Assembly: GCF_003344865.1 (NCBI RefSeq)
Contig: NZ_CP031166.1
Coordinates: forward strand, 186,001 to 250,000
Source of the DNA: Euzebya pacifica
GTDB taxonomy: Bacteria > Actinomycetota > Nitriliruptoria > Euzebyales > Euzebyaceae
Direction: 5' to 3'
Length of the DNA: 64,000 nucleotides
Shown here: piece after piece, positions 1,980 through 60,123 of the stretch
Position numbering within the stretch: the stretch's first letter is position 1
How the letters are laid out: the number at the start of each line of letters is the position of its first letter
Notes under the pieces: generated by a model
What the model saw: the letters and a program-made list of their open reading frames with translations, nothing else
What the model was told of the DNA's origin: nothing
The model's database searches: none
Program-made: the position numbers and the translations under genes

Positions 1980-4900
1980 ATGGCAGACCCGTTCGTCCAC
2001 CTCCACGTCCACACCGAGTACTCGATGCTGGACGGCAAAACCCGTGTCGGTGGACTCGTTGAGACCGTCGCCGCTGACGGTGCACCCGCCGTGGCCGCCT
2101 CCGACCACGGCAACCTGCACGCCTGGCCCGCTCTGTACAAGGCCGCCAAGGCCGCAGGCATCACCCCGATCCCGGCGATCGAAGCCTACGTCGCCCCGGA
2201 GGACCACCGGGTCAAGGCCAAGCAGGGCCCCTACAACGAGGCCTACTACCACCTGACCGTCCTCGCGACGTCCAATGTCGGGTTCGCCAACCTCGCCAAC
2301 ATGTCGTCCAAGTCATGGATCGACGGGTTCTACCGGAAGCCCCGCATCGACCTAGGGCTGCTGGAGACCCACTCCGAAGGACTCACCGTCCTGTCGGGCT
2401 GCCTCGGCGGGGAGGTCTGCCAGCACATCCTCCATGGCGACAAGGACGCCGCGCGCGAGACCCTTGACCGGTACGCCCAGACGTTCGGCGATGACCGGGT
2501 GTTCGTTGAGCTGATGGACCATGGGCTGCCCGACGACAAGATCGTCAACCCGGTCCTGGTCCGCCTCGCCAAGGACCTCGGGCTGCGGACCGTCGCCACC
2601 CAGGACTCCCACTACACCCACCCCGGGGACGCCGACTCCCACGACGCCCTCCTGTGCGTCGGGACAGCCTCCAAGGTCGCCGACGCCGACCGGTTCCGGT
2701 TCGACTCCCAGGAGTTCTGGGTCAAGCCGGCCGCCCAGATGCGCGCCCTGTTCGACGACTTCGCCCCCGACGCCTGCGACTCCACCCTGCTGATCGCAGA
2801 GATGGTCGACGTCGACATGCGCTATGGCCTGGACCTCCTCCCGGAGTTCCCCTGCGACGACGGCCACACCGCCCAGTCCCAGCTGCGCCGCGACGTCATG
2901 GATGGTGCCAAGCGGTTGTACGGCGACCCGTTGTCCGACGAGGTCCTGGAACGCATCGCCTACGAGCTGCGGGTCATCCACGACATGGGCTTCGATGACT
3001 ACTTCCTCATCGTCGCCGACTTCGTCCGCCACGCACGAGAGGTCGGCATCCGGGTGGGGCCGGGGCGCGGATCGGCCGCCGGCGCGATCGTTGCCTACAC
3101 CACCGGTATCACGCGGGTCGACCCGATCCGGCACGGCCTGATCTTCGAGCGGTTCCTCAACCCCGACCGCGTCTCCATGCCCGACATCGACATGGACTTC
3201 GACGACCGCCGACGCGGCGAGATGATCGAGTACTCCAAGGTCAAGTACGGCGTAGACCTGGTCGCCCAGATCGCCACCTACAGCCGGATGAAGGCCAAGC
3301 AGGCTATCAAGGACGCCGCACGGGTGCTGGACCTGCCCTACTCCGTCGGTGACCAACTGTCCAAGGCGTTCCCTCCCTCCAAGCAGGGCAACGACCCGAC
3401 GATCGCCGACGCCCGCGAGCACGAGCCGTTCACCACCGCGTTGGAGGGCATGGGGCCGGAGGCTGCCAAGGCGGTCGATCTCGCCGCGACGTGGGAGGGC
3501 AACGTCCGGGGCACCGGCGTGCACGCCGCCGGTGTGGTGATCGCCCCCAAGCCGCTGGCGACCCTGTCGACCCCGCTGATGGTCGATGACGACGGCAACG
3601 TCGTCACCCAGTGGGAGCTGAAGACCATCGAGCCGATGGGCTACCTCAAGATGGACTTCCTCGGGTTGCGGAACCTCACCATCATCTCCGACGCCGAGGA
3701 ACTCATCCGTCGCAACAAGGGCATCGACGTCGACATGGACGACCCAGCCCTGCTTGGCGAAATGGACGACGGCGCCGCCTACGACCTGCTGTGCCGCGGC
3801 GAGACCCTCGGCGTGTTCCAGCTGGACTCGCGCGGCATCCGCGATCTCGTGGTCCGCATGCAGCCCCGCCAGTTCGATGCCATCTCCGCTGCGCTGGCGT
3901 TGTACCGGCCCGGCCCGATGTCGATGGAGATGCACACCGAGTACGCCGACCGGTTGGCGGGACGCAAGCCGGTCCGCTACGACCACGAAGCGCTCGAGCC
4001 CATCCTTGGGGAAACCCTCGGAATCCTGACATATCAGGAGCAGGTGCAGCGGTGCGCCACGGACCTCGCCGGGTTCTCCGGCGGCCGGGCCGACACGCTC
4101 CGCAAGGCCGTCGGCAAGAAGCAGGCCGACCTGATGGCCGAGCTCGAACCGGAGTTCAAGGACGGCGTCACCACATCGGTCGACGGCGTCCTCGCCGACC
4201 GACTGTGGGACCTCATCGTCGGGTTCGCCCAGTACGGCTTCAACAAGGCCCACACCGTCTCCTACGGCATCGTCAGTTTTCAGACCGCCTGGTTGAAGGC
4301 CCACTACCCGACCGAGTACATGGCGGCGCTGCTCACCTCGGTTGCCAACAACAAGGACTCTCGGCCCGTCTACCTGGCGGAGAACCGGCGGATGGGCATC
4401 GAACTGCTGCCACCGTCGATCAACGCGTCGGTGGACGCGTTCGCCGCCGACGGCGACACCATCCGCTACGGCCTCGGGGCCATCAAGGGGATCGGGTCCT
4501 CGGTGGTGTCGGCGGTGGTCGCCGAACGCGACGCCAACGGCCCGTTCGCCGACTTTCACGACTTCGTCGCCCGGCTGTCGGCCAATTTCCCGTCTGTGCT
4601 CAACAGTGGCTCGGTGGAGGCGCTGGCGTCCTCCGGGGCGTTTGACCCGGTCGGCCACCCACGCAAGGGGCTCACCCAGGTCGCCGCCCAGATCCTCGAA
4701 GGTGCCGTGGCCAAGGCCAAGGCGGAGGCGGAGGGCCAGTTCTCGTTGTTCGACGCGCTCGGCGGCGGCGACGCGCCGGACACCAGCGACCGGGTGCTGG
4801 TCCCTGGGGGCGAGTACGACCAGACCCAGATGCGCCGGCTCGAACGAGAACTCCTCGGCGTCTACGTCTCCTCCCACCCCCTCGACGGACACCAGCACCG

Positions 4901-6254
4901 CATCGCCGCCCAGTCCGACCGGCAGATCGCCGACCTCCCCGAGCTCCGCGACGGCCATCCAGTCGTCATTGCCGGGATGATCTCCGCCGTCACCGGCAAG
5001 ACCACCCGCAAGGGCGACCCCTACGCCACCGCGGTCCTGGACGACACCACCGGCGAGGTCGACCTCACCATCTGGCCCAGGGCCTGGGCCAAGTCCCAGC
5101 CGCTGTGCACCGCCGACGCTCTCATCGTCGTCGAGGGCAAGTTGGAGAAGAACGACGACGGCATCAAGGTCCTCGTCGACCGGGTCCGCCCCTTCGACAC
5201 CACCATGGAAGTTCCCGAATCACCGGAGGTTGCCGCGATGGACACCCCCGACCCGCACCCGGACCCGGCCCCGGTCCCCGTCGCGAGCCGTCCGGCACCC
5301 GACGTCCCCATCGCCGGCGGCTCGGGCACCGACGCGCAACCCGCTGCCGTCGCCGTCGAGACGGCTGCGGCGCTGCCGGCCGGTTCGCCGGTCGCGGTCA
5401 TCGACGTGTCGCCGGCCGAAGCGCTCGCGGGCGGGTTCGGCCATGCGATTCGGTCGCTGATCGAACGGCATCCGGGCCACAAGTCGGTGCGGGTGCGGAT
5501 CAGTTCGCCGGGCCGTGTGACCACGATGAAGCTGCCGAAGGCCAAGTTCAGGGTGGACGACTCCAACGGTTGGTCCGCCGACCTCGCCGAAACCCTCGCC
5601 GGGCTGATCGCCGCTCCGGCAGCGACCGTCGACGGGACACCGGTCGACCCGTTCACCGGCGAACCCGACCCGACCGACGACCGCGGGCCGGCCACCAGCA
5701 CCCAGGTGATCGCCGACGCCGTCGAGACGGCCGGTGACGCCACGCCGGGCGGCGATGCCACCGTTGAGGCGGCCGGGCCGCAGGACACGGCCGAGGGCGA
5801 CCGGGTTGGGCCGGGGGAGTGGACCGACGGGCTGGACATCCCCGGCCCGGCCGAGGAGGACACGTCCGAGGAGGACGCTTCCGAGGAGACGCCACCCCCG
5901 GTCGAGCCACCCGATGACGGGCCCGAGCAGGAGTCCGCCGACCCCGCAGACACCGCCGAGTCACAGGACCAAGGAGGGGAACCGGAGCCGCCGGTCGAGG
6001 CCACCTTGGTCCCACGGACCGACGAGGAGCTCGCGCAGATCGACGCCGCCCGCGAACGGGTGCCCGCCGACGCGGCAGCGATCATCGGCATCGCCGCCGG
6101 GTTCGACATCGACCGTGACGTCGTCAAGGCGGTCGCTGAGGAGCACGGCCTGTTCACCAAGACCGCGATGGGCGACCCCGTCAGCCGGTCCCGACTGCTG
6201 CACCTCGTCCTCGACGAGGCCGCCAAGGGACGACGCGAGGAGACGGCCCGGTGA
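1980..6254 (+). CDS. dnaE: DNA polymerase III alpha subunit with extra C-terminal domain
   Basis: Replicative polymerase of 1424 residues, versus about 1170-1200 for typical actinobacterial DnaE1. The start is the ATG giving MADPFVHLHVHTEYS; the frame is open further upstream but overlaps the NTPase gene. The PHP domain (HLHVHTEYS) comes first. The palm carries the PDIDMDFDDRR and MDFLGLRNL aspartates. The fingers carry GPGRGSAAG and FAQYGFNKAHTVSYG. An HhH segment (GAIKGIGSS), a clamp-binding-like QFSLF near residue 920, an OB domain and the usual DnaE1 tail (to about 1210) follow. An acidic Pro/Asp/Glu linker containing VDPFTGEP then leads to an extra domain at about 1345-1424. That domain matches the C-terminus of the 41201-42091 protein. 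A methyltransferase gene overlaps its stop. All catalytic aspartates are present, so it is likely active. Confidence 0.95.
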   Translation: MADPFVHLHVHTEYSMLDGKTRVGGLVETVAADGAPAVAASDHGNLHAWPALYKAAKAAGITPIPAIEAYVAPEDHRVKAKQGPYNEAYYHLTVLATSNVGFANLANMSSKSWIDGFYRKPRIDLGLLETHSEGLTVLSGCLGGEVCQHILHGDKDAARETLDRYAQTFGDDRVFVELMDHGLPDDKIVNPVLVRLAKDLGLRTVATQDSHYTHPGDADSHDALLCVGTASKVADADRFRFDSQEFWVKPAAQMRALFDDFAPDACDSTLLIAEMVDVDMRYGLDLLPEFPCDDGHTAQSQLRRDVMDGAKRLYGDPLSDEVLERIAYELRVIHDMGFDDYFLIVADFVRHAREVGIRVGPGRGSAAGAIVAYTTGITRVDPIRHGLIFERFLNPDRVSMPDIDMDFDDRRRGEMIEYSKVKYGVDLVAQIATYSRMKAKQAIKDAARVLDLPYSVGDQLSKAFPPSKQGNDPTIADAREHEPFTTALEGMGPEAAKAVDLAATWEGNVRGTGVHAAGVVIAPKPLATLSTPLMVDDDGNVVTQWELKTIEPMGYLKMDFLGLRNLTIISDAEELIRRNKGIDVDMDDPALLGEMDDGAAYDLLCRGETLGVFQLDSRGIRDLVVRMQPRQFDAISAALALYRPGPMSMEMHTEYADRLAGRKPVRYDHEALEPILGETLGILTYQEQVQRCATDLAGFSGGRADTLRKAVGKKQADLMAELEPEFKDGVTTSVDGVLADRLWDLIVGFAQYGFNKAHTVSYGIVSFQTAWLKAHYPTEYMAALLTSVANNKDSRPVYLAENRRMGIELLPPSINASVDAFAADGDTIRYGLGAIKGIGSSVVSAVVAERDANGPFADFHDFVARLSANFPSVLNSGSVEALASSGAFDPVGHPRKGLTQVAAQILEGAVAKAKAEAEGQFSLFDALGGGDAPDTSDRVLVPGGEYDQTQMRRLERELLGVYVSSHPLDGHQHRIAAQSDRQIADLPELRDGHPVVIAGMISAVTGKTTRKGDPYATAVLDDTTGEVDLTIWPRAWAKSQPLCTADALIVVEGKLEKNDDGIKVLVDRVRPFDTTMEVPESPEVAAMDTPDPHPDPAPVPVASRPAPDVPIAGGSGTDAQPAAVAVETAAALPAGSPVAVIDVSPAEALAGGFGHAIRSLIERHPGHKSVRVRISSPGRVTTMKLPKAKFRVDDSNGWSADLAETLAGLIAAPAATVDGTPVDPFTGEPDPTDDRGPATSTQVIADAVETAGDATPGGDATVEAAGPQDTAEGDRVGPGEWTDGLDIPGPAEEDTSEEDASEETPPPVEPPDDGPEQESADPADTAESQDQGGEPEPPVEATLVPRTDEELAQIDAARERVPADAAAIIGIAAGFDIDRDVVKAVAEEHGLFTKTAMGDPVSRSRLLHLVLDEAAKGRREETAR

Positions 6255-9981: not shown

Positions 9982-10833
9982 ATGGCGACCAAGACGTGTG
10001 GCAAGCCGACCGCGTCCGGTGGACGCTGCCAGAAGCCGATCGGTCCCGCAGGGACCTGCGGTGCCGATCACAAGGCACCCATGGCGGTGGCTGAGGTCGC
10101 CACCGCCAACGGTGTCGCCGCGCTCGCCGACCCGTTCGCGGGTGGCCGCTACCCGCGTGAGCCCTCCGGCCCTTCCGGGAGCTTCGACACCGGCGTCATC
10201 GAGGTGACGCCAGGCGACCGCGCCGCGTCAATCGCTGAACGGTACGGGGTGGCGCTCAACAGCGAGCACCGCGGCCCCCAGACCGGCTACCACGTCGACG
10301 TGTCCCACCTGACCCACGACCAGGTCGCCGGTGCGCTCACCCGCAACATCCACGGCAACGTCGAGGTCCACACCGGCGGCGACGACAGCGTGTTCATGGT
10401 CGGCGACTACGACGCCATCGTCGCAACCGCACACGCCGCCACAGCGGAGGTGCACGCCGACCGGGGACTGCGTGACGCCGACACCGCCGCCCATCTCGAA
10501 ACGGCTGCTGAGAACGCCAGGTTCGTCGGGGACGTCGGTGCCGTCGGCCGGACCACCCTGCCGGCGACCGCCAAGACCACCGGGGCTGCGTCGCTGTTCA
10601 AGCAGCGGTTCCCCATCGGCACCCGCATGGAGATCGACGCCGGCGACGGAGCCGCCCCCATCATCGGGACGATGGCACGGGGTACCGGCGACTACTACGT
10701 GGACGGCAAGCCTGGCCCGGTGATCGTGGTGACGATGACCGATGACGACGGCGCCAGCTTCAGCGTCCAGCTCGACAAGCCGTCGCGTCTGACCTCACCG
10801 ACCTGGCAGGTCCGCGAACTCTCCAACGCCTGA
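9982..10833 (+). CDS. Cys-tagged protein of unknown function (tag plus DPF)
   Basis: 283 residues from ATG 9982, chosen because the Cys module begins at once and GAGAAGGG lies upstream. Residues 6-30 form the C..T..GG.C....G..G.C...H module (CGKPT ... CGADH). An Ala/Val linker leads to ADPF (D50-P51-F52). The body has an alpha/beta region, then a C-terminal beta-rich domain (GTRMEIDAGDGAAP, GPVIVVTMTDDDG). Not recognised. It sits between a putative ART and a tagged GNAT gene with 1 bp spacing to the latter, so the three probably act together. Confidence 0.8.
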   Translation: MATKTCGKPTASGGRCQKPIGPAGTCGADHKAPMAVAEVATANGVAALADPFAGGRYPREPSGPSGSFDTGVIEVTPGDRAASIAERYGVALNSEHRGPQTGYHVDVSHLTHDQVAGALTRNIHGNVEVHTGGDDSVFMVGDYDAIVATAHAATAEVHADRGLRDADTAAHLETAAENARFVGDVGAVGRTTLPATAKTTGAASLFKQRFPIGTRMEIDAGDGAAPIIGTMARGTGDYYVDGKPGPVIVVTMTDDDGASFSVQLDKPSRLTSPTWQVRELSNA

Positions 10834-10834
10834 G

Positions 10835-11479
10835 GTGGCCCGCCGCTGCGGGAAACCGACCCGAGGCGGCGGCCGTTGCACCAAGAAGGTCGGGCAGGCC
10901 GGCCGGTGCGGCGCCGAGCATGCCGGGCAGGGGCCGCCTGTCACCGCCGCACGGGTCCACAATGGTGTGGTGACCGCTGATCCGTTCGCCCTGCCAGACA
11001 GGTCCGGGCCCACCCTCGGTCCGTTGGAGGACCTCACCCGCCGATGGGCGGACGAGGGGGTGCGCATCGACATGTTGCACCGTGACGGTGAACCAACCGC
11101 CGTGCTGTCCAGGATCGCCGTCGATGCCGATCGGCGCGGCCAAGGACTCGCGGACACGGCCATGACCGAACTCACCGGATGGGCCGACAGCCACGGGATC
11201 ACCCTGGCTCTCACGGCATCGGGGGACTTCGGTGCCTCACCACGCCGGCTGCGGGACTGGTACGGCCGGCACGGGTTCGTGCCGAACCGGGGTACCGACC
11301 ACCGGGTCACCGAATCGATGGTCCGACCCCACCCCGAGGAACGGCCCGCACCACCTGCGGCACGGCCGGCGACAGCGGCGGAGTCGGAGGCGGCGCTGCT
11401 GGCCGAGCTCGACACGAAGGTTGCCGACGGGCGGATGAGCGCAGCGGAGGCCGACGCGATCCGGGCGATGCTCACCTGA
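10835..11479 (+). CDS. Cys-tagged GNAT-family acetyltransferase
   Basis: 214 residues; the GTG start is 1 nt after the previous stop. The tag fills residues 5-29 (CGKPT ... CGAEH) and ADPF lies at 48-51. A GNAT fold follows: the acetyl-CoA loop is VDADRRGQGLADTAM (R100-G104), then WADSHGITLAL and WYGRHGFVPN, the usual C-terminal motif. The last ~50 residues are a Pro-rich stretch and a short helix. GNATs acetylate proteins, small molecules or toxins; the substrate is unknown. The pairing of this tag with a modifying enzyme repeats at 22223 and 33846. Confidence 0.85.
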   Translation: MARRCGKPTRGGGRCTKKVGQAGRCGAEHAGQGPPVTAARVHNGVVTADPFALPDRSGPTLGPLEDLTRRWADEGVRIDMLHRDGEPTAVLSRIAVDADRRGQGLADTAMTELTGWADSHGITLALTASGDFGASPRRLRDWYGRHGFVPNRGTDHRVTESMVRPHPEERPAPPAARPATAAESEAALLAELDTKVADGRMSAAEADAIRAMLT

Positions 11480-22208: not shown

Positions 22209-22214
22209 GGAATG
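22209..22214 (+). promoter_or_regulatory. GGAATG element 8 nt before 22223 start
   Basis: GGAATG-N8-ATG with no Shine-Dalgarno, the leaderless-like spacing class also seen at 28165, 32591, 33832 and 38378. Confidence 0.4.
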
Positions 22215-22222
22215 ACCCGCCC

Positions 22223-23452
22223 ATGAGCACCCAACGAAGCCTGTTCGGTCGGATCACCGACACCGTCCGCCCATCCCGCGCACGGGCACGCGACCGACGC
22301 GACCGGATCGCCGGAGCATTGCTCGGCGTCCATGTCGGTGACAGCCTGGGGGCGACCCATGAGTTCGCGTCCGGGCCGAACACCGGGGAGCAGACCCGCG
22401 ACATCGTCGGCGGCGGGACGTTCCGGTGGGAAGCTGGCCAGCCGACCGACGACACCGACCTCACCCTTGCGGTGATGCGGGCCCACCTGGCCCATCCCGA
22501 TGATGACGATGCGATGGTGCGTGACGCCGCTGATCGGATGGTCGCGTGGATGGAGTCCGGTCCGCGCGACATCGGCGGGACCACCCGCAAGACGCTTGGT
22601 GCGGTGAGGAACGGCGTCCCGCTCGGTCAGACGGGGGCCACCCACGAGCACAGCGCAGCCAACGGGTCGTTGATGCGGTGCATCCCCACTGGTGCGTTGA
22701 TCGCCGACCCCGCCCGACGGCGGGTCGTCACCGACATGGTGGGCGGAATCACGCACGGCTTGCCGGTGTGCCGGGACAGCTGCATCGTCTACAACGACGT
22801 GGTTGCCGCCCTCGTTGACGGCGCGGACTTCGAGGACGCCGTCCGCGATGCCGTTTCTGACCCGCGCATCGCCATCGAGGTCCGCGACGCGGTCTTCGAT
22901 GTGTTGTCGGCAGGTCCCGACGGGCCACCGCCGGTGGAGTACGGCCAGAAGCAGGGATGGGTGCTCGGCAGCCTCCGCACGGCAGTGTGGGCGGGGCTGC
23001 AGCCCGATGGTGAGCAGGCGTTGATCGAGGTGGCCAACGCCGGCGGTGACGCCGACACCAACGGCGCGATCGCCGGCGGGTTGATCGGTGCCCGTGATGG
23101 CATGTCGGCGCTGCCCGAGCGATGGTTGGACACGATCTGGCACCACGACGAGATGGTCGATGCCGCTGCGGTGTTCGCCGACCGCCGAGAGCGGGAGGGC
23201 AGGGCCTTGCGCCGACGGGACCGGGTGGACCGGCCTGGTCGCGGGGATCGGGGCGGGGTGGGGTCGGCAGGCGGTCCCTACGGGGCGGATGCGTCGCGTC
23301 GGTGCGGTGCCGCGACCAGGGCGGGGGGGAGGTGCCAGCAGCGGATCGCCAACGGCACATGCCCCCACCACGGGAGTATCGGTGGCCCTTCACGGGGCAC
23401 TCCGAGAAGGGTCGCGGCGCGCGCGGCGATCAGGGACCCGTTCGTCCCGTAG
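22223..23452 (+). CDS. ADP-ribosylglycohydrolase with C-terminal Cys tag and terminal DPF
   Basis: 409 residues. Residues ~28-315 are an ADP-ribosylglycohydrolase (DraG/ARH) domain: AGALLGVHVGDSLGATHEF, the metal-binding PTDDTD (75-79), ANGSLMRCIPTG and GGDADTNGAIAG (274-285). All metal ligands look intact. These enzymes remove ADP-ribose from proteins. A Gly/Arg linker leads to the Cys module at 361-383 (CGAAT ... CPHH), and the protein ends in RDPFVP. So the tag and DPF that are N-terminal elsewhere are C-terminal here. The enzyme could reverse or limit the ADP-ribosylation made by the ART genes. It converges with the EAL gene (22-bp overlap). Confidence 0.88.
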   Translation: MSTQRSLFGRITDTVRPSRARARDRRDRIAGALLGVHVGDSLGATHEFASGPNTGEQTRDIVGGGTFRWEAGQPTDDTDLTLAVMRAHLAHPDDDDAMVRDAADRMVAWMESGPRDIGGTTRKTLGAVRNGVPLGQTGATHEHSAANGSLMRCIPTGALIADPARRRVVTDMVGGITHGLPVCRDSCIVYNDVVAALVDGADFEDAVRDAVSDPRIAIEVRDAVFDVLSAGPDGPPPVEYGQKQGWVLGSLRTAVWAGLQPDGEQALIEVANAGGDADTNGAIAGGLIGARDGMSALPERWLDTIWHHDEMVDAAAVFADRREREGRALRRRDRVDRPGRGDRGGVGSAGGPYGADASRRCGAATRAGGRCQQRIANGTCPHHGSIGGPSRGTPRRVAARAAIRDPFVP

Positions 23453-25481
23453 GGCCGTGGGCGGCGGCTGCGTCGGTGGGGAACTGGCCGAGTTCGGCGA
23501 CGAGGCCGGAGATCCGGTCGGGAGGAGCGGGGCGGGCGATGCCGAAGCCTTGCAGCATGTCGACGCCGAGGAGGCGCAGGGCCTCTCGTTCGCCGTCGTG
23601 CTCGACACCTTCTGCGGTGACCGACAGGCCCAGGTCATGGGCGAGTCTGACGAGGTGGGTGAGGACGACACGGGCGGGTCGGTCGGTGTGGACGTTGGTG
23701 ACGAGCGCCCGGTCGAGCTTGATGGTGTCGAAGGGGAACCGGGTGATGCGGGCGAGGGAGGACTGGCCGGTGCCGAAGTCGTCCACCGCGGACCGGCACC
23801 CAAACTCCCGGAGCCGCTCCAACGTCTTGGTTGTGGTGACCGGGTCGAGGATGGCCGACTCCTCAGTCATCTCGATGACGATCCGCGACAGCGGGACCTC
23901 GTGACGGGCCGACGCGGCGACGAGTGACTGCTCAAGGTCGGGTTGGGTGAGATCGGAGGGTGCCACGTTGATGTTGGCCGACAGGATGAGCCCGTCCCGG
24001 GCCCACAGGGCGAGGTCGGCCATGACCCGGTCGACCATGGCTGCGGTCAGGGCGGAATCCATCCCCATGCGTCGCACGAGCGGCAGGAGCTTGCCGGGGG
24101 TAACCAGCTCGTCACGGTCGTACCACCGAGCGAGTGCCTCCACGGCAACCACCCGGCCGGTGAAGGCCTCCACAATGGGTTGGTAGTACGCGTCGATGCC
24201 GCCGGAGCGGATCGCGTCGAACAGCCTGGTGGTCCTGGCGAGCGCTTCGGCGTCGGTGGCGTTGGGTTCGGCGTTGATCGTGATGGCGCCGGGTCCCGCC
24301 CCCAGTGCGGCTTCGGCCCGGACCAGCCGGTCCCCGCGGTCGCTCCGCGTGTCGTCGGGGTGGGGGGCGGCGACGCCGATCTCGGCCTGCAGCACCACGG
24401 GGATGCCCATCACCGTCCACCGGCGCGTGAGTTCCTCGCGCATCCGCACGGCATGGAGCCTGGGGTCGGCCAGACAGATGGTGGCCAGGATGTCGGGCGC
24501 CACTCGTCCGGTGAACATCGACGGGTTGAGCGTCTCGAATACCCCGGCGACTTCTTGCAGGACGGCGTCGGCGAACCCGTCCCCGAGGGCTTCGCGGCAT
24601 CCGTCGAGCCCGTGGAGTCGCACGACCATGGTGGTGGCGTCGGGGTGGTCGAGCTCGGAGGTCTCGGCGATGAATCCGTTGCGGGACCGCAGTCTGGTCG
24701 TCGCGTCGGTGGCGACCGCACGGGAGTAGTCGTTGGCGCGTGCGGTGACGAACGACAGCGCGATGATGGCCGGTAGCGCTGCGGGGAGCACGGTGGGGTG
24801 GGTCATGGCCACGGCCAAGAGCAGGGCACCGGTGCTGGCCGAGGTGAGGATGCCGAGCGCTGGGATGTTGCCGGACAGTTCGGTGAAGCGGGTGCGTTTC
24901 CCGGTGGCCGCCCTGCTGATCGTGGAGGACACGAGGCCGCCCAGGAGGTCGGCAAGGACCACGCCAAGGACGAGTCCGACGAAGGGTGCTCCGGTCCGGG
25001 CGGCGATCATGGCGGCGACGATTCCGCCCAGGCCGGCCTGAACGATGGTGACGGCGGCGTTGACGAGGGTCCGCAGGGTCCCCACGCGCCTGGTCAGCGG
25101 GACGCTCGGGTGCGGGTTGGCGATTGCGCCGATCAGTTGCCCGGTCCCACCGATGATCCCGATGAGTGCCAGTCCGACCGTCGGGTTGAGCATGGTGGCG
25201 GTTACATAGCCCGCGCTGGACAGCGAGTACATCGTGTCGCGCTGCCGGACGGGGAAGGCATCGAGAGCCGCCCCGAGGAACAGCAGGAGCAGGGGGCCGA
25301 CGATCGGTCCTGTCGCCTCGGGAAGCCTGATGGCAGCCGGGACGGCGAGCGCAGCGGCAGCGATCATCGCCACCGCGACGATGACGGCGAAGGTCGGGGT
25401 GGTCGGACGTTGCGGCAGTCCCGTCAGCCGTGCGGCGACCGCGACGAACCGGCCCCTCCTGTCGCCGCGCGAATCGCTCAT
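23430..25481 (-). CDS. membrane EAL-domain c-di-GMP phosphodiesterase with degenerate GGDEF
   Basis: About 683 residues from ATG 25481 (GAGGCAGG upstream); ATG 25499 is an alternative. The first ~250 residues hold about eight hydrophobic helices. A GGDEF-like domain without the GGDEF signature follows. The EAL domain has VEALARW, SANINVAPSDL, IVIEMTEES, VDDFGTGQSSL, TIKLDRAL and TAEGVE, so all metal and base residues of active phosphodiesterases appear present. It should lower c-di-GMP and affect motility, adhesion or signalling. A LexA box lies about 80 bp upstream. Confidence 0.85.
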   Translation of the reverse strand: MSDSRGDRRGRFVAVAARLTGLPQRPTTPTFAVIVAVAMIAAAALAVPAAIRLPEATGPIVGPLLLLFLGAALDAFPVRQRDTMYSLSSAGYVTATMLNPTVGLALIGIIGGTGQLIGAIANPHPSVPLTRRVGTLRTLVNAAVTIVQAGLGGIVAAMIAARTGAPFVGLVLGVVLADLLGGLVSSTISRAATGKRTRFTELSGNIPALGILTSASTGALLLAVAMTHPTVLPAALPAIIALSFVTARANDYSRAVATDATTRLRSRNGFIAETSELDHPDATTMVVRLHGLDGCREALGDGFADAVLQEVAGVFETLNPSMFTGRVAPDILATICLADPRLHAVRMREELTRRWTVMGIPVVLQAEIGVAAPHPDDTRSDRGDRLVRAEAALGAGPGAITINAEPNATDAEALARTTRLFDAIRSGGIDAYYQPIVEAFTGRVVAVEALARWYDRDELVTPGKLLPLVRRMGMDSALTAAMVDRVMADLALWARDGLILSANINVAPSDLTQPDLEQSLVAASARHEVPLSRIVIEMTEESAILDPVTTTKTLERLREFGCRSAVDDFGTGQSSLARITRFPFDTIKLDRALVTNVHTDRPARVVLTHLVRLAHDLGLSVTAEGVEHDGEREALRLLGVDMLQGFGIARPAPPDRISGLVAELGQFPTDAAAAHGPTGRTGP

Positions 25482-25562
25482 TGCACCAGCCTGCCTCATG
25501 CCGACGACGGCGCGACACAGCCCCGTCCGGTGTCACACCGCAGGCCTACGATTCCCCTTGTA

Positions 25563-27870: not shown

Positions 27871-28182
27871 ATGAACAACGCCACGACCGAGCGCCCGCTC
27901 CGCATGACCCCACCGGAGGTCGCCGAGGTCATCGGCGTCGTGGCCGAAGCACGCAGCGTCGGGCTTGCGGTCCCCGCCACCGCCCGACTGCTCGAGGGGT
28001 CGTTCACGATCGCCGATCTCGCCGAGGCGCACCTCGAACTCGAGGACGTCCGCCGCCGCCGCCTCCCTGGCAAGGCGGGCCCCGCGGTGTACGGACGTGC
28101 TCGCGTCGCGGCACTGCGGGCCCAGCTCGTCCTGTGTCCCGACACCGCCCCGCCGCCTGAGGCCGGAATGGGCCATCCATGA
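27871..28182 (+). CDS. unrecognised 103-residue helical protein
   Basis: ATG 27871 follows TCAGGGGC. Helical: LRMTPPEVAEVIGVVAEARS and then AEAHLELEDVRRRRLPGKAG. Its stop overlaps the next start (ATGA), so it is co-translated with the SDPM protein. Function unknown. Confidence 0.65.
   Translation: MNNATTERPLRMTPPEVAEVIGVVAEARSVGLAVPATARLLEGSFTIADLAEAHLELEDVRRRRLPGKAGPAVYGRARVAALRAQLVLCPDTAPPPEAGMGHP
28165..28170 (+). promoter_or_regulatory. GGAATG element 8 nt before 28179 start
   Basis: GGAATG-N8-ATG inside the 3' end of the previous gene. Same exact spacing as the elements at 22209, 32591, 33832 and 38378. Confidence 0.35.
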
Positions 28183-28643
28183 GCACATGGGCGGTCGGCA
28201 GCAACCAGCACAAGAAGGTCCCGGCGGCCACGCAACCGCCGGTGGCCGCACCGCACGCCGCAGCGGCGGCCGGTTCCGACCCGATGTCGACGTCGGCGGG
28301 ACGACAGGGACGCATCGAGGCCAGGAACCGCCTGAACGAGGCCATCGACGCGCTGTCCGGTGGCAATGAGGACGCCGTCCTCGCGACCTTGCACGCCGCC
28401 GATGACGCCGACCATGCCCTGGGCGCGGCGGCGGCCCACTACCCACCGGACGGGACCGTGGAGTGCATGGCCGGCGGGCCCGGTCCGCCGCTGGAACGGG
28501 CGGCCATCCACCTGCGCGCCGCAGCCGGGCACCTGCGCGGCCGGTCGGGCATGGACGACCACGACAAGGCGTCGGCGCTGCTGTCGGCTCGGGCACGGAT
28601 CGGTGCCGCCCGCGAGCTCCTCGCCCCGCTGATCGGCGGATGA
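28179..28643 (+). CDS. helical protein with SDPM motif, no Cys module
   Basis: 154 residues. The N-terminus is Ala/Pro-rich and leads to GSDPM (D34), like the SDPM of the Cys-tagged 38392 product. After it both proteins show a similar helix (RNRLNEAIDALSGG here, GDRLDAAVTVLSGS there). The rest is Ala-rich helix with LERAAIHLRAAAGHLRG. It looks like a tag-family member that lost, or never had, the Cys part. Function unknown. Confidence 0.7.
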   Translation: MSTWAVGSNQHKKVPAATQPPVAAPHAAAAAGSDPMSTSAGRQGRIEARNRLNEAIDALSGGNEDAVLATLHAADDADHALGAAAAHYPPDGTVECMAGGPGPPLERAAIHLRAAAGHLRGRSGMDDHDKASALLSARARIGAARELLAPLIGG

Positions 28644-33845: not shown

Positions 33846-34922
33846 ATGCGAACTGCCACCGCACCGTCCGCGCCGGCTGTCGTCTGCGGGTTCCGTGGAT
33901 GCGGCCACCTGGTGCGCAGACGCGGCGACTGCGGTGGCCGTCAGTGCCCCCGCAGCATCGGTGCCGAGCTCGTCCGCCATGCCGAACTCGGTGACGACAC
34001 CGGACTGCTGGCCCAGGCCTTCAACGACCCCTTCACCCCGCCGAACATCACCGCCGCGCCGGCAACGGGTGGGACCAGCGGGTCGCTGACCAGCCCCGAG
34101 GCGATGGCCGCCATGATCACGGCCGGCTACGACGACGATGACGGTGACCGCCGTGCCGTGGTCGACACCGCCGCAACCCTCGAAGCGGCCATCCGCAGCA
34201 TCCCCACGGCCGCCCTGATCGACGCCGCATGGGCCGACACCCCCCTTGCCGCCGCACTGGCCGACGGCCCAGGCGACGGCACCTCCGGCTTCTGGACACG
34301 CACCGCTTGGGGTGAATGGACCCGCCACCCCGGCGGTTCGGCCGAACCCGACGACCCCGGCACGGTCGTGTTCCACCCCGGCGACACCAAGGACCTGCGT
34401 GCCCTGTCCCGCCAGGTCCGACGCGACGCGGTCCACCGGCTCGTCCAGTTGTGGGCCGTAGACCCCACCGGCCACCCGCAGACCCGCGCAATGCAACGCA
34501 TCGCCGCCGACGCCATGGCGCGCGACCCGCGCGGGTTCACCCCCGACCCGGCCCTGACCGGCCGGGACAAGGTGTACGCCGAACTCCTCGCCGCGCAGTA
34601 CGACCACACCCAACGGTGGCTTGCTGACCGGGGAATCGAATGGGTCACGCTGCACCGCGGAGAATCCGCCACCGGCCGGGGCTACCGGCGCCACCCGATG
34701 GCGTCGTGGACCACCGAGGAATGGGTGGCCGACTGGCATGCGACCGGCAGCCTCAGCAGCGGTGGCACCCCCGGCTCCGAACGGGTGGCCACCGCCGACA
34801 TCCCGGCCCGCGACATCATGTCGGTGCCGACCACCGGGATGGGCACGATGACGGAGTACGAGGTTGTCGTTCTGTCCCGCGTCCGTCCCGACCGGGCCGC
34901 CGTCAGCGGGCGTGCCGCATGA
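33846..34922 (+). CDS. Cys-tagged putative ADP-ribosyltransferase
   Basis: 358 residues. ATG 33846 chosen because the tag begins there, though the frame is open upstream. Residues 14-34 are a divergent Cys module (CGFRGCGH ... CGGRQC) and NDPFTPP follows at 60-66. The C-terminal half carries R-S-ExE: TLHRGES (R271), ASWTTE (S287) and TEYEVVV (E337, E339), with IPARDIMSVP between. QYDHTQRWLADRGI before the R motif matches QYAHTQRQFAERGI in the 60126 product, so these two are paralogues. Predicted activity: mono-ADP-ribosylation of a protein target from NAD+. No signal peptide. Confidence 0.75.
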   Translation: MRTATAPSAPAVVCGFRGCGHLVRRRGDCGGRQCPRSIGAELVRHAELGDDTGLLAQAFNDPFTPPNITAAPATGGTSGSLTSPEAMAAMITAGYDDDDGDRRAVVDTAATLEAAIRSIPTAALIDAAWADTPLAAALADGPGDGTSGFWTRTAWGEWTRHPGGSAEPDDPGTVVFHPGDTKDLRALSRQVRRDAVHRLVQLWAVDPTGHPQTRAMQRIAADAMARDPRGFTPDPALTGRDKVYAELLAAQYDHTQRWLADRGIEWVTLHRGESATGRGYRRHPMASWTTEEWVADWHATGSLSSGGTPGSERVATADIPARDIMSVPTTGMGTMTEYEVVVLSRVRPDRAAVSGRAA

Positions 34923-38391: not shown

Positions 38392-39123
38392 ATGAACAAC
38401 AGCCAATGCGGAGCAGCGACGGGTACCGGCCGCCCGTGCACCCAGCCGGTGACCATGGCCGGACACTGCGCAGCCGGACATCCGGCGCGATCCCGTCCCG
38501 CAACCACAACCGCAACCATGCGGGCATCCGCGACGTCGGTTGCTGCCTCGGACCCGATGACGGAACCCGCAGCCGGCCTGTCGCCCACCCAGATCGGCGA
38601 CCGGCTCGACGCTGCCGTCACCGTGCTGTCCGGGTCGACGGATGGTGAATGGGTCAGCGATGACTACGACCTGACCGCCGCCGACTGCCGCAAGACCCTC
38701 GACGAACTCGCACCACTGGACGGCCAGATCGGCAAGGACAGCGTCCCAACCGGGCTGGCCGACGATGCGCTGGCCGACCTCACCATCCGCGAACTGGTCC
38801 AGCATGCCCACCTGAACCTGACCAGCGCCGCCCACCGTGTGCGCCGCGACGGGTTCGCCGACGACCGGGCCACACAAGAACGTGTCGCGTGGGAACGCAA
38901 CCGCGCCAAGGCCTTCCTGACCGCTGCCGTGATCGCCGATTCCGCCCACGCCCACGGGCAGAAGCTCAACCGGATGGGCGGAGGGGCTGACGGTGGCGGG
39001 TGGACCAACCGGGGCGAGATCGCCACGTCCACCTCCCGTGCGCTGGGCCGCACGGCCACCGACGGTGAGACCAGCCAGTGGGCTTTGCGTGTCGCCGCCT
39101 GCGGTGTCACGGTCAGGAGTTGA
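38392..39123 (+). CDS. Cys-tagged helical protein (tag plus SDPM)
   Basis: 243 residues. Tag at 6-30 (CGAAT ... CAAGH), Thr/Ala linker, then ASDPM (D54). The body is helical: GDRLDAAVTVLSGS, TIRELVQHAHLNLTSAAH and ERVAWERNRAKAFLTAAVIA. It resembles the body of the 28179 product near the SDPM motif. No catalytic motif seen; it may be structural or a binding protein. Followed 4 nt later by a Cys-rich small gene. Confidence 0.78.
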   Translation: MNNSQCGAATGTGRPCTQPVTMAGHCAAGHPARSRPATTTATMRASATSVAASDPMTEPAAGLSPTQIGDRLDAAVTVLSGSTDGEWVSDDYDLTAADCRKTLDELAPLDGQIGKDSVPTGLADDALADLTIRELVQHAHLNLTSAAHRVRRDGFADDRATQERVAWERNRAKAFLTAAVIADSAHAHGQKLNRMGGGADGGGWTNRGEIATSTSRALGRTATDGETSQWALRVAACGVTVRS

Positions 39124-42321: not shown

Positions 42322-42969
42322 GTGTTGGGCCAGCACGACGCGACCCGAACCTGCGGATACACCACCGCAGACGGCTTGGCATGTCCGGAACCGGCCCGTC
42401 CCGGCGAAACCCGGTGCGCCGAGCACGCCCCGGAACGGTGGACCACCGGAGGACTGCTCGGCCTCACCGACCTCGACATCCGCATCCTTCGCTCCCAGGG
42501 CATCACCCCGGAGCAGGTCGCTGCCTACCCCCGCCACCTCGTGCCGTCATCGATCCGCGACCTCGTCGAAGCCGGAATCGGACCCGAGCGCGCCCAAGGA
42601 TGGCCGCAGCGGTTCACCTTCGGCAGTGAGCTGGTCGCGATGATCACCGCCGGGCTGGACCCGGCCACCGCCGACCCCTACCCGGAACGGTTCTCCGGAT
42701 CGGAGATCGTGGAGCTCCACCGGGCCGGCCTCACACCTTCCGCAGCCGACAACTGGCCCGTCCGATTCGACGGCCACGACATCGCCTATCTCGCCGCCAA
42801 ACGGCTGCCGCCCCGCTACTGCGACGCCTACCCCGACTGGATGGCCCCCTCCGTCATCGCCCGACTCCACAGCGTCGGTGTCACCCCCGAGGTCATCGCG
42901 GGCACCGCTGACATGTGGACCGAAGCGATGTCAGAGGACGAAATCGAACAGTTCCTGTCGCTGCTATGA
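42322..42969 (+). CDS. Cys-module protein with six 25-residue helical repeats
   Basis: 215 residues; GTG 42322 behind GAAGGAAGG. The Cys module is at 11-34 (CGYTT ... CAEH), but no DPF follows. Residues ~45-210 are about six 25-residue repeats of the pattern I..L...GI.PE.A..YP.RF (VPSSIRDLVEAGIGPERA, TFGSELVAMITAGLDPATA, SGSEIVELHRAGLTPSAA). They should stack as an alpha-solenoid binding scaffold. Related W/A-G repeats are in the 32605, 44616 and 61748 products. Partner unknown. Confidence 0.75.
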   Translation: MLGQHDATRTCGYTTADGLACPEPARPGETRCAEHAPERWTTGGLLGLTDLDIRILRSQGITPEQVAAYPRHLVPSSIRDLVEAGIGPERAQGWPQRFTFGSELVAMITAGLDPATADPYPERFSGSEIVELHRAGLTPSAADNWPVRFDGHDIAYLAAKRLPPRYCDAYPDWMAPSVIARLHSVGVTPEVIAGTADMWTEAMSEDEIEQFLSLL

Positions 42970-46143: not shown

Positions 46144-48483
46144 TTGCCCAGAACACGCACACGCTGCTTGGCGCCCACCACCGATGGCGGCGCCTGCATG
46201 CGTCACACCACCGGCGGCCGCTGCCACCAGCACCGCAGCAGCGCGTCGCGCAACGGCAGCGCAGACGCCACGGCCAGCCGTGCCGCAGCCTCCGACCCGT
46301 TCACCAGCGGGACCGTCGGCCTCCGCGACCTGCCCGCACAAGCCGCCGGCGACCCGTTCCACGGCTCGGCGCTGAAGATGTCAGGGGTCACCACCGTCTG
46401 CACCGGCCCGGGATGTGCAGCCAACACCACCGCACGCGACGGGCTGTGCGCCTCGTGCCACTCCAACGGCAACGCACCCGGTCCCGACACGCCCGGCTAC
46501 CAGGACCTGATCCACGACGGCATGGCACTCACCGCCTGCACCCATGGAGGATGCGGCCGGCCAACCCGGTCCCGGACCGGGGTGTGCATCAAGCACCGAG
46601 GCGTACACGGGCCATCCTCAACGGACCGTGCCGACGGGCTTCCGCAACGGTCCGCCGCAGCGGAGCGCGACATCCTGAACGACCGTGAACCACGGCTGAT
46701 CGACCTGATCGGCAGCGGCCCGCAGCTCGGCCTCGCCGCCCGTGGCAGCGACCAGCACCGCAGGGACATCCGCACCCGCGATGTGAAGGCCTGGTGCATC
46801 GGCGGCAGCGACGACGACCCCTGCCCCAACACCACCAAGTCCACCACCGGCCGGTGCGGCGGCCACCGGCCACCCGCCTACGGCTCCATCTGCATCGGCA
46901 TCACCACCGGTGGTCAACGCTGCCGCCGGTCGGTCTGGGGCCGACCGACGTGCGACCAGCACCGCGACGGCGACACGGTCCTGACCACCGACACCCACCT
47001 GTGCACCGCGATCGCCCACTCGGGGAAACGCTGCACCAAGACCGCCGCCGACGGCACCGTCACCTGCTACCTGCACGCCCACTGGTCCGACCCCGACGCC
47101 GACGCCGCCGGCCACCTCGCCGGCACCTCCCAGGCCAACCCCGACCACGACGGACGCGTCACCGGCGGCATCGGACGGTGGAAGACCCGCCAGGCATCCG
47201 CCAAGGCCCCCCAGTCATTCCCACGGGACCGTCGCAAGGCCTCTGGTGCCCAACGTGCCCGAACGGCCCCCAAGGCCCCCAAGGCGGGCTTCCGCAGCTA
47301 CGCCCACGCCAACGACGCCGTTGTCGGTCCCGCCGCCGCCAAGGAGAACCTCCCCGCCGTTGAGCACCTCCGAGGCCGCAAGATCGTCTTCGTCGACATG
47401 GACGGCACGGTCTACGACTCGTGGCACTGCTGCTCCAAGAAGGACAACAGCCTCGTCGGCAACGACGAGTGTCGCCACATCCGCACCGACACCGTCGAGG
47501 CGATCAAGCAGACGATCGCTGACAACACCGGCCCAGACGGGATCCCCCCTGTTCCCGTCGCGCTCACCTGGCGGGCTGGATGCGAGACGGTGACCCGTGA
47601 ATGGCTCGGCCACCTCGCCGCCGAGACCGGCCTTGAGATCACCGACGTGTTCCTCCCCGGCTCCTCCCAGGACATCGCTGGACTCGCCATGCCGCGCAAC
47701 AAGGGCGGGGGGGTGGACCACCAGGCCAACCGCACCCAGTGGGGCGGAGGCCAGGTCGCGTTCAAGGCCCGTGAGATCGAGAGCCTCCTCGATGTCCTCG
47801 GGATCGTCCCGGTCGGCCACTTCGAGGACAACGCCGACGTGCTCAAGATGAGCGAGGGGAAGGGCACCGGCCACATCCATCACGTCCCCCGGCTCGTCAC
47901 CATCGAGAAGCACGAATGGGACGCCGGCTACCTGGGGGCGCCCAAGCCGAAGTACGGCTCGGGGTCATGGGGCGGTGGCCGGTCGAACTGCGAGGTCTGC
48001 AACAACCCGTTCGACGGCGTCAACGTCCGCAAGTCCGACGCCGACCGGTGGCGCTGCACCGACTGCGTCGCCTCGGTCGGCACCTGGGCGGAGGAGCAGA
48101 AGGCCAAACGTGCCTCCCGCAAGGCCGCAGCGAAGGACAACGGGATCGGCAAGGCCCGCAAGATCGTTCCCCCAGCCGACCCGTTCACCCCCGTGCCCGA
48201 CGACGACTACTCCGCCGGCAACCACTGCACCTCCTGCGGCACGCCCGTGGGCGGCCACCCCGGCCAGTGGGCCGTCTGCGACGACTGCGACTACGCCACG
48301 ACCGGGGCCGACGGCGCAGAGATCGTCGAGGGCTCAGACCTGTGGCTCGACACCGGCGGCGAGATGGAGGAGGTCACGGTGATGATGGCCGACGACGGCA
48401 CCGACTCGGTCGCGGTCAAGCGGCGCAGCGACGGCGAGATGCTGTTCGTCGACGCCGAGGACCTCCACTCAACCCCCTTCTAA
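46144..48483 (+). CDS. six-module Cys protein with HAD-like phosphatase domain and zinc ribbons
   Basis: 779 residues; TTG 46144 chosen for the GGAGG and because the first Cys module starts at residue 8. Module 1 (CLAPT ... CHQH) is followed by ASDPFTS (D51), and a second DPF is near 70. Five more Cys modules follow to about residue 320 (e.g. CIGITTGGQRC, CTAIAHSGKRC). Residues ~410-600 resemble a HAD hydrolase: VFVDMDGTVYDSW (D418, D420) and GHFEDNADVL as the metal motif. The C-terminus has CxxC pairs (CEVCN ... CTDC, CTSCG ... CDDC) separated by ADPFTPVP, and an acidic end. It may be a phosphatase or polynucleotide-end enzyme held by multiple zinc modules; substrate unknown. Confidence 0.75.
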   Translation: MPRTRTRCLAPTTDGGACMRHTTGGRCHQHRSSASRNGSADATASRAAASDPFTSGTVGLRDLPAQAAGDPFHGSALKMSGVTTVCTGPGCAANTTARDGLCASCHSNGNAPGPDTPGYQDLIHDGMALTACTHGGCGRPTRSRTGVCIKHRGVHGPSSTDRADGLPQRSAAAERDILNDREPRLIDLIGSGPQLGLAARGSDQHRRDIRTRDVKAWCIGGSDDDPCPNTTKSTTGRCGGHRPPAYGSICIGITTGGQRCRRSVWGRPTCDQHRDGDTVLTTDTHLCTAIAHSGKRCTKTAADGTVTCYLHAHWSDPDADAAGHLAGTSQANPDHDGRVTGGIGRWKTRQASAKAPQSFPRDRRKASGAQRARTAPKAPKAGFRSYAHANDAVVGPAAAKENLPAVEHLRGRKIVFVDMDGTVYDSWHCCSKKDNSLVGNDECRHIRTDTVEAIKQTIADNTGPDGIPPVPVALTWRAGCETVTREWLGHLAAETGLEITDVFLPGSSQDIAGLAMPRNKGGGVDHQANRTQWGGGQVAFKAREIESLLDVLGIVPVGHFEDNADVLKMSEGKGTGHIHHVPRLVTIEKHEWDAGYLGAPKPKYGSGSWGGGRSNCEVCNNPFDGVNVRKSDADRWRCTDCVASVGTWAEEQKAKRASRKAAAKDNGIGKARKIVPPADPFTPVPDDDYSAGNHCTSCGTPVGGHPGQWAVCDDCDYATTGADGAEIVEGSDLWLDTGGEMEEVTVMMADDGTDSVAVKRRSDGEMLFVDAEDLHSTPF

Positions 48484-59223: not shown

Positions 59224-60123
59224 ATGCCAGGACACAAGTGCAACAAGCCGACCCATGGCGGCACGCCCTGCCAGAACCCGGTGGCGGCACCGGGGGCCAC
59301 GTGCGGGGCATCTCACCCCAAGGCCGGCCAGGCGACCGTCAACGTGCCCGCTGCGTCCACGGCCGCAGCCGCTGCCGACCCGTTCGCCGTGACGGACTTC
59401 GACTCGATCGTCGCCGGCTTCGACGGCCCGGCCACCGAGTCCCTCCGCGACGAGGCCGACACCGAGACCCGCAACCACGTCAAGGCTGCCGCCAAGAGCC
59501 TCGGTGGCCGGTTCCCCACCCCCAGCCACGCCTGGGGCAGCGCCAACCAGGCGGTCACCGCGTCCATGGCCATGCTGTCGGGCGCCAAGGACATGCCGAT
59601 CCCCGAGCAGATCGCCCGTCTCGAGGGCGCCGCCCACAACCTGCTCGTGGCCGCCGCGGTCATGCGTGCGGTGCCCGCCAGCGGCAACGGCGATCCCGGC
59701 GACACCGACGCGGCGCACAGCAGCGTCGCAGCGGCCCTCGCTTCCGCGACCGAGCACGGCACCCTGTCGCTGGACCCCGACAACGACAACGTCCGCACGG
59801 CCCGCGCCTACGCCCGGAAACTGGCGGTCGACGCCATGCAGGGCCTCGACACGGCCAACCCGACCCAGACGTCGGCGGAGGCCGCCGACCGGTTCCGGCA
59901 GGCCGCCCAGTGGCTCACCAGGGGCGTCGCGGTCATCAAGAACCGCGACAACGACGCCCACCAGGCCAAGAAGCTCGGGGCGGGCGGACTCGCGCTCCCG
60001 GCCATCGGCAGCAACCAGATCCTCGAAACGCCCGAGGAGGCCCAGGACAACGCGATGGCGTTCTACCTGAGCGGAGCAGCCGACGGTGCCGATGACTGGC
60101 TCAAGGGCATGGACGGCGAGTAG
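59224..60123 (+). CDS. Cys-tagged helical protein (tag plus DPF)
   Basis: 299 residues. Tag at 6-31 (CNKPT ... CGASH), Ala-rich linker, ADPF at 51-54. The body is helical: HVKAAAKSLGGRFPTPSH, QIARLEGAAHNLLVAAAVM, ARAYARKLAVDAMQGL. Two residues after its stop the third ART gene starts, so the two are co-expressed; this may be an ART accessory or target-binding protein. No catalytic motif seen. Confidence 0.78.
   Translation: MPGHKCNKPTHGGTPCQNPVAAPGATCGASHPKAGQATVNVPAASTAAAAADPFAVTDFDSIVAGFDGPATESLRDEADTETRNHVKAAAKSLGGRFPTPSHAWGSANQAVTASMAMLSGAKDMPIPEQIARLEGAAHNLLVAAAVMRAVPASGNGDPGDTDAAHSSVAAALASATEHGTLSLDPDNDNVRTARAYARKLAVDAMQGLDTANPTQTSAEAADRFRQAAQWLTRGVAVIKNRDNDAHQAKKLGAGGLALPAIGSNQILETPEEAQDNAMAFYLSGAADGADDWLKGMDGE

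Follow-up and report, generated by a model that had tools for sequence, protein, structure and literature searches.

Short terminal signals common to unrelated cargo are known from the internal proteins of phage T4, where they serve capsid targeting. For eCIS, N-terminal loading signals that are likewise short, terminal and common to unrelated cargo are described (PMC11495950). Iyer et al. 2017 (PMC5512222) proposed that an N-terminal ArdC "header" couples proteins to conjugative delivery, and start-associated sequences were reported for cluster K mycobacteriophages (PMC3203893). In a limited open-access literature search we found no account of a plasmid marking dozens of unrelated proteins with a single short tag.

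The DNA analysed here (the window, 64,000 nucleotides) corresponds to positions 186001–250000 of a 571,580-bp contig, hereafter C2, in a genome of two contigs (6.37 Mb), the other of which, the ten times larger 5.8-Mb chromosome, is designated C1. About 35 mostly unrelated proteins of C2 share a tag composed of a Cys3-His module, a flexible linker and a DPF or DPM motif. Its likeness to the ArdC-N headers of polyvalent proteins (PMC5512222) would lie in one module coupling many effectors to mobile-element delivery; in contrast to these headers, the tag is about 50 residues long and sits at either end of separate, mostly single-domain proteins, and no ArdC-N match was found among the tagged proteins of C2. 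Unlike capsid-targeting and eCIS loading signals it also occurs C-terminally, and no capsid, portal, terminase or contractile-system family is among the Pfam and PHROG matches listed for the large C2 proteins (at least 380 aa). The HGGxSTG domain (NCBIfam HGG_STG, NF041373) has a cysteine module of the same CxxxTRxGxxC..C..HG type, but most C2 tags do not match this model, and the linker and DPF part is absent from it. With cluster K mycobacteriophages C2 has in common an element repeated at gene starts across one genome; here, however, this is GGAATG (or GCCGCACACA on related Micrococcales plasmids), with an 8-nt spacing and a tie to tagged genes.

In one member of the DraG/ADP-ribosylhydrolase family (PF03747) the tag stands at the C-terminus. 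The gene, its parts and its neighbour are located in the window as follows.

22209..22214, plus strand: start-linked element GGAATG, with exactly 8 nt between it and the hydrolase ATG, common to tagged C2 genes
22223..23452, plus strand: gene of the C-terminally tagged ADP-ribosylglycohydrolase (DraG/ARH type), 409 aa (translation, PF03747, 2woc)
22313..23122, plus strand: catalytic domain, residues 31–300, with TDDT, NGSLMR and GGDADTNGA aligned to DraG 2woc (PF03747)
23123..23302, plus strand: last part of the hydrolase core, then a spacer rich in Arg and Gly, residues 301–360 (homologue alignments)
23303..23371, plus strand: Cys3-His module CGAATRAGGRCQQRIANGTCPHH, residues 361–383, presumed zinc site (translation, tag profile)
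23372..23434, plus strand: 21-residue linker (linker lengths across the replicon)
23435..23449, plus strand: DPF motif (405–407) and last residues DPFVP before the stop (translation)
23430..25499, minus strand: convergent gene sharing 23 bases with the 3′ end of the hydrolase gene

PF03747 matches residues 31–300 over the whole profile (1–287 of 287; E 1.5e-58, 199 bits against a cut-off of 26.2). The closest solved structure, DraG 2woc, aligns with residues 26–305 (E 3.2e-30) with the TDDT, NG-xMR and GGDADT motifs matched, the first and the last of these being metal-site motifs. The score is below the equivalog cut-offs of DraG TIGR02662 and Tri1 NF041672. Judging by these alignments the protein is an intact ADP-ribosylglycohydrolase, as the first-pass annotation had named it, and removal of ADP-ribose is predicted. 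Beyond the family fold it has a tail of 94 residues with the Cys3-His module, the linker, DPF, VP and the stop. Homologues align up to about residue 305–320, those of phages and plasmids, among the matches listed, no further than about residue 318; an untagged paralogue (C2:62748, 46% identity) ends once the hydrolase core is complete, and the Cys-His module is absent from all 20 non-self homologues examined. The tail is therefore regarded as an addition. No relatives of the hydrolase were found in viral contigs, nor any recognisable homologue on three related plasmids fetched (W01, W02 and W03, see below); since no tagged homologue was found, the tag of the hydrolase itself is judged from its sequence match.

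This match is exact with respect to the positions given earlier for the module (361–383) and for DPF (405–407 of 409). The tail fits the pattern C-x(6-9)-C-x(5-15)-C-x(2-5)-H with three Cys and one His, and its DPF lies 21 residues past the His, the family range being 17–25. A profile built from 29 N-terminal tags, with the hydrolase tag left out, finds the tail in the six-frame replicon set with E 2.5e-6 and the tail of a second protein, C2:112015-113001, with E 0.009, the best match in residue-shuffled frames having E 0.06. Similarity of the hydrolase module to HGG_STG is weak (E 0.19, 11.5 bits against the curated cut-off of 29), and its linker is richer in Arg than most others. Codon bias of the gene is weak from residue 316 on; the tag part scores −0.23, where the 1st percentile of gene windows lies at −0.15, and N-terminal tags are also low (−0.26 to 0.28), so that the hydrolase tag is at the bottom of their range. 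Since the tag is C-terminal rather than N-terminal both here and in C2:112015-113001, position was not taken as defining the family. Overall, the C-terminal piece is probably a genuine portable tag and not a relic.

The second C-terminally tagged protein ends with DPMG. Both C-terminal copies keep the order of parts and stop 1–2 residues after DPx (DPFVP, DPMG), and their sequences, ANGTCPHHGSIG in the hydrolase tail and ASGKCPDHGTIG in C2:112015-113001, are alike (E 8.7e-4). The latter tag lies in a strongly coding frame, with a codon score of 0.21, the two remaining forward frames scoring −0.85 and −0.27. Homologues of C2:112015-113001 on three Micrococcales megaplasmids of about 400 kb end in a tag peculiar to those plasmids, ..GSFASYxHxEPTFRL or ..GQYTYRSHGEPTFRL: on pACHL01 and pPA-B-2242 the end reads RGKTTAASNRGSFASYxHxEPTFRL, and on the zg-Y1110 plasmid RGHNGHAGQYTYRSHGEPTFRL. 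On ordinary plasmids, namely those of Dietzia, Thioalkalivibrio and Rhodococcus, the tail is missing because the homologous proteins are already at their end. Because the ..EPTFRL C-terminus of the W01 homologue matches the N-terminal tag profile of these plasmids (GGQFA profile) weakly, with E 0.1–0.4, its identity as a tag is deduced from position, conservation in three plasmids and the GxF-x-H-x-EP core. The first-pass annotation had suggested that the tag works from either terminus like a portable docking signal and had proposed a comparison of homologues in related elements. Carried out on C2:112015-113001 in place of the hydrolase, this comparison supports portability between the termini, as does the very existence of a second C-terminal tag; that the tag docks to something we infer.

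For the family as a whole, 541 genes were called on C2 by a simple codon-based method. The profile made from 31 tags gave 35 matches on C2 and none convincing on C1, where the analysis was confined to profile and pattern searches, and a regular expression for module, linker and DPx gave 34 matches on C2 versus 0–2 in shuffled frames. Since the set was partly picked by the DP[FM] pattern, invariance of DP in the alignment is not independent evidence. The module-only profile, which makes no use of DPx, is free of this dependence: it found 19 matches on C2, one of them a fragment, and all 18 others have DPF or DPM 17–25 residues past the His (chance about 0.8% each). Linkers of 17–25 residues are, as a group, rich in Ala, Thr and Ser (32% Ala, 15% Thr) with Asp plus Glu at 1.7% versus 12.9% in the proteome. 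Pfam matched none of the 31 tags. In a partial structure model the module reached a pLDDT of about 72–78 and the linker about 50; no PDB fold matched this model, comparison of the tag profile with PDB gave nothing meaningful, and the whole hydrolase modelled without alignment (pLDDT 39) was unusable. The tag is mostly N-terminal and at least twice C-terminal on C2. The bodies attached to it include GNAT (4), NUDIX, PD-(D/E)XK, poly(A)/CCA polymerase-like, GmrSD_N, Arr-like, pentapeptide, YunG and ADP-ribosylglycohydrolase proteins. N-terminally tagged proteins of the window are the following.

9982..10833, plus strand: tagged protein (MATKTCGKPTASGGRCQKPIGPAGTCGADH..ADPF; regular expression, tag profile)
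10835..11479, plus strand: tagged protein, presumably GNAT-like by our own assignment, four tagged proteins matching GNAT models (CGKPTRGGGRCTKKVGQAGRCGAEH..ADPF; tag profile)
38392..39123, plus strand: tagged protein (CGAATGTGRPC..ASDPM; tag profile)
46144..48483, plus strand: tagged multi-Cys-cluster protein with a part that we take to be HAD-like from our reading of the motif VFVDMDGTVYD (CLAPTTDGGAC..ASDPF; tag profile)
59224..60123, plus strand: tagged protein (CNKPTHGGTPC..AADPF; tag profile)

GGAATG occurs within 80 nt upstream of 23 of 35 tagged and 27 of 506 untagged genes (p 2.8e-18). Among 31 aligned sites 20 are exactly 8 nt before ATG, one is at 9 nt and ten are at 32–44 nt; CGGAATG-N7-CATG is found 16 times on C2 and once on C1, the element being almost lacking at chromosomal gene starts. 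It may possibly be a leaderless promoter, and its sharing by tagged genes suggests co-expression of the tagged cargo. W01 and W03 carry the GCCGCACACA element 93 and 117 times, respectively (expected 1.7 and 1.5), and where ATG follows closely the spacing is most often 8 nt; by this repetition and spacing it is the analogous element of the related Micrococcales plasmids. In the hydrolase gene GGAATG, 8 nt before ATG, supports the choice of the start codon. What makes this gene informative is that the leader is at its 5′ end and the tag at its 3′ end: the two are separable, and the tag can be considered apart from the promoter.

The VirB4-like ATPase of C2 has full-length homologues (24–27% identity) on seven related MEGAPLASMIDS (Micrococcales plasmids, 375–567 kb), and the kinship of C2 with these megaplasmids is suggested by proteins of low identity (24–34%). 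The Cys tag is absent from the five related Micrococcales plasmids examined. A blind search for sets of genes whose products resemble each other over the first 75 residues and have unrelated bodies was made on C2 and on pACHL01 (NC_011879; W01), Curtobacterium pS16 (W02) and an Arthrobacter caoxuetaonis plasmid (NZ_CP099467; W03). On C2 the Cys tag came out as the top group with 27 members; the other three gave a different N-terminal tag, with 49 members on W01, 62, more diverse, on W02 and 30 on W03. W01 and W03 have the approximate consensus R-x-P-x-G-x-P-x-G-G-Q-F-A-x3-H-x-E-P-x-V-x-L, which contains no cysteines. A query with this GGQFA tag matched 5 of 72,556 plasmid records, all five among the seven with full-length VirB4-like homologues, and no phage record. 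Its codon pattern picked out two GGQFA-tagged genes on a single 52-kb contig of IMG/VR classed as viral, IMGVR_UViG_3300036820_000646, which may be a fragment of a GGQFA-type megaplasmid. For the C2-type tag, genomes of the order and of the phylum gave at most 1–3 weak matches each, a codon pattern matching 7 true C2 tags revealed no true tag in IMG/VR or in 84,980 species genomes, and tblastn of one C2 tag against plasmids and phages returned chance matches only. C2 is the only replicon of its type known here, and none of the collections searched yielded a relative of its tag.

In three body families both C2 and the related plasmids carry a tag at the matching terminus, which for one family is the C-terminus. 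On C2 the poly(A)/CCA polymerase-like protein bears the Cys tag N-terminally, and on W01 and W03 it has the GGQFA tag at that end. The GmrSD_N protein carries an N-terminal tag on C2 as well as on W02, and among the bodies compared between C2 and the related plasmids none was seen with its tags at opposite ends. The same body carrying another tag at the same end indicates that the tag sequence is replicon-specific and exchangeable and that the tagged end is kept. Both types close with an acidic residue and Pro followed, directly or after one residue, by a hydrophobic one (DP[FM] versus EPx[VIF]xL), an observation that is no more than suggestive.

Probably, the tag is a replicon-encoded, position-tolerant sorting or docking signal. 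It would act as an address label bound from either terminus by a putative replicon-specific receptor, which would bring the cargo, including the ADP-ribose-removing hydrolase, to one common place; co-expression of the cargo would be provided by the start-linked DNA element. This place could be the transfer apparatus of the replicon or the site of its replication and expression. The second tag type, being free of cysteines, makes recognition a more likely common function than metal chemistry or binding of nucleic acids. Points against the docking tag are the weak codon bias of the hydrolase tail, the lack of a tag on hydrolase homologues, the weak profile match of the W01 C-terminus, the low identity of the proteins linking the replicons and a tag presence that is not constant between homologues: PD-(D/E)XK and GNAT homologues are untagged on other plasmids, and a 690-aa protein is tagged on W01 and W03 and untagged on C2. 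Tentatively, one can go further and suppose that giant actinobacterial plasmids have a sorting code, each with its own tag on about 6–10% of the proteome at either end, with tags exchanged, cargo kept and joint delivery to the recipient cell or to a plasmid-built compartment. If the tag sorts proteins, this would be a replicon-specific address system, directly testable via a reporter with about 50 added residues, and sequence alone would suffice to list what is tagged on giant plasmids of this poorly understood class.

Two versions of the docking tag, differing in destination, are its sub-cases, and their likelihood is not to be added to that of the docking tag itself. The tag may recruit proteins to a T4SS-like machinery, so that they travel with the DNA and act early in the recipient, where the hydrolase would undo ADP-ribosylation. 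This version is possible but doubtful. C2 carries a VirB4-like ATPase and an SLT_3/M23 cell-wall hydrolase, the plasmid records matching the GGQFA query all belong to those with the full-length ATPase, and the tagged GNAT, NUDIX, Arr-like, ADP-ribosylglycohydrolase, PD-(D/E)XK and GmrSD_N proteins resemble early-acting conflict proteins, in parallel with the ArdC "header" proposal (PMC5512222). However, no relaxase or coupling protein was identified on C2, and the five related plasmids inspected are typed non-mobilizable by PLSDB. Signals of conjugative T4SS are, moreover, usually C-terminal or internal, unlike the mainly N-terminal C2 tag.

Somewhat less likely still is that the tag concentrates its cargo at a replisome or transcription site belonging to the replicon. 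Genes for Pol III alpha, clamp, DnaG primase, DnaB, ligase, class II RNR and SSB are all present on C2, the first being located in the window.

1980..6254, plus strand: DNA polymerase III alpha subunit of the replicon, 34% identical over 1092 aa to a homologue on Curtobacterium pS16

Possession of this subunit by both C2 and pS16 is in line with such a local factory, as is the replicon-specific start element used by tagged genes. DPx is not known to match a clamp- or SSB-binding motif, which argues against it, and although the C2 SSB ends with DDGDPF, N-terminal tags have no free C-terminal Phe, which SSB tips need. Mimicry of the SSB tip by DPF was set aside because N-terminal tags lack the free carboxylate. 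The SSB itself is encoded at C2:318416-318823 (minus strand), and other SSBs of the genome end in the usual D-x-PF tip. The DnaB-type helicase (C2:545635-548952, minus strand) contains intein splicing and LAGLIDADG domains. Thy1, type I-E Cas3/Cse1 pieces, a pilus ATPase and T2SSF genes are also present on C2.

That the module is merely a zinc knuckle tethering enzymes to DNA or RNA, with DPx incidental, is improbable: 6 of 31 tags do match HGG_STG (best E 2.9e-5), but the spacing of DPx is conserved and homologues bear a cysteine-free tag instead. Even less credit can be given to a propeptide or export leader cleaved at A-x-A|DPF. Residues before DPF are indeed small, with Ala at −3 in 20 of 31 tags and Ala, Thr or Ser at −1 in most, yet 30 of 31 linkers have no hydrophobic core at a cut-off of 2.0 over 12 residues (median maximum hydropathy 0.92), and cleavage in the two C-terminal copies would take off only 4–5 residues. 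A Sec-type export signal is unlikely, and the earlier statement that the hydrolase speaks against an N-terminal export signal or a start-linked propeptide agrees with the single linker reaching 2.0 and with the C-terminal copies ending so close to DPx. Copying of promoter, start and first 50 codons as one block with no protein function is hardly plausible as well. It would account for the co-occurrence of tag and GGAATG leader and for the clustering of tagged genes (12 neighbour pairs at less than 2.5 kb versus 5.4 expected, p 0.0015), but the hydrolase gene begins with the leader and finishes with the tag, conservation of the C-terminal tag extends to other plasmids, and Cys, His, DPx and the acid-free linker are kept while the sequences diverge. 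Least probable of all is an accident in which read-through or a frameshift joined the hydrolase to the beginning of a tagged gene next to it, the frameshifted start of another gene having been raised in the first-pass annotation: the weak codon bias of the hydrolase tail would fit it, but the next gene is convergent and overlapping, leaving no room for a decayed tagged gene downstream, the homologues lack the tail, and a second, conserved C-terminal tag exists that also stops just past DPx. This convergent gene we take, from our own reading of the sequence, to be GGDEF/EAL-like; an EAL domain was among the families matched in a domain scan of the batch including its region.

Several other C2 proteins contain parts of the tag. 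In window 42322-42969 a Cys-His module is found near the protein start with neither linker nor DPF, and the module thus exists outside the tag as well. Proteins at window 28179-28643, C2:251769-252842 (minus strand), C2:153551-154111 and C2:511018-511641 have the linker and DPM or DPL preceded by another module, of the HTRxDPATGRxxPVRAHxVR type, or by none, and the upstream module may be exchangeable. In C2:461825-462666 (minus strand) and window 33846-34922 an alternate four-Cys module (CGxxGCxH..CGxRxCP) is followed by linker and DPF; one of these proteins looks like a DEDD-type exonuclease. An N-terminally tagged protein at C2:324226-325452 (minus strand) has a chain end that is exactly ..HATDPF. 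The tagged Arr-like ADP-ribosyltransferase at C2:126047-126622 (plus strand; Arr-ms E 1.5e-5, PDB 2hw2 weak with E 0.03) is a possible writer to the tagged hydrolase as eraser.
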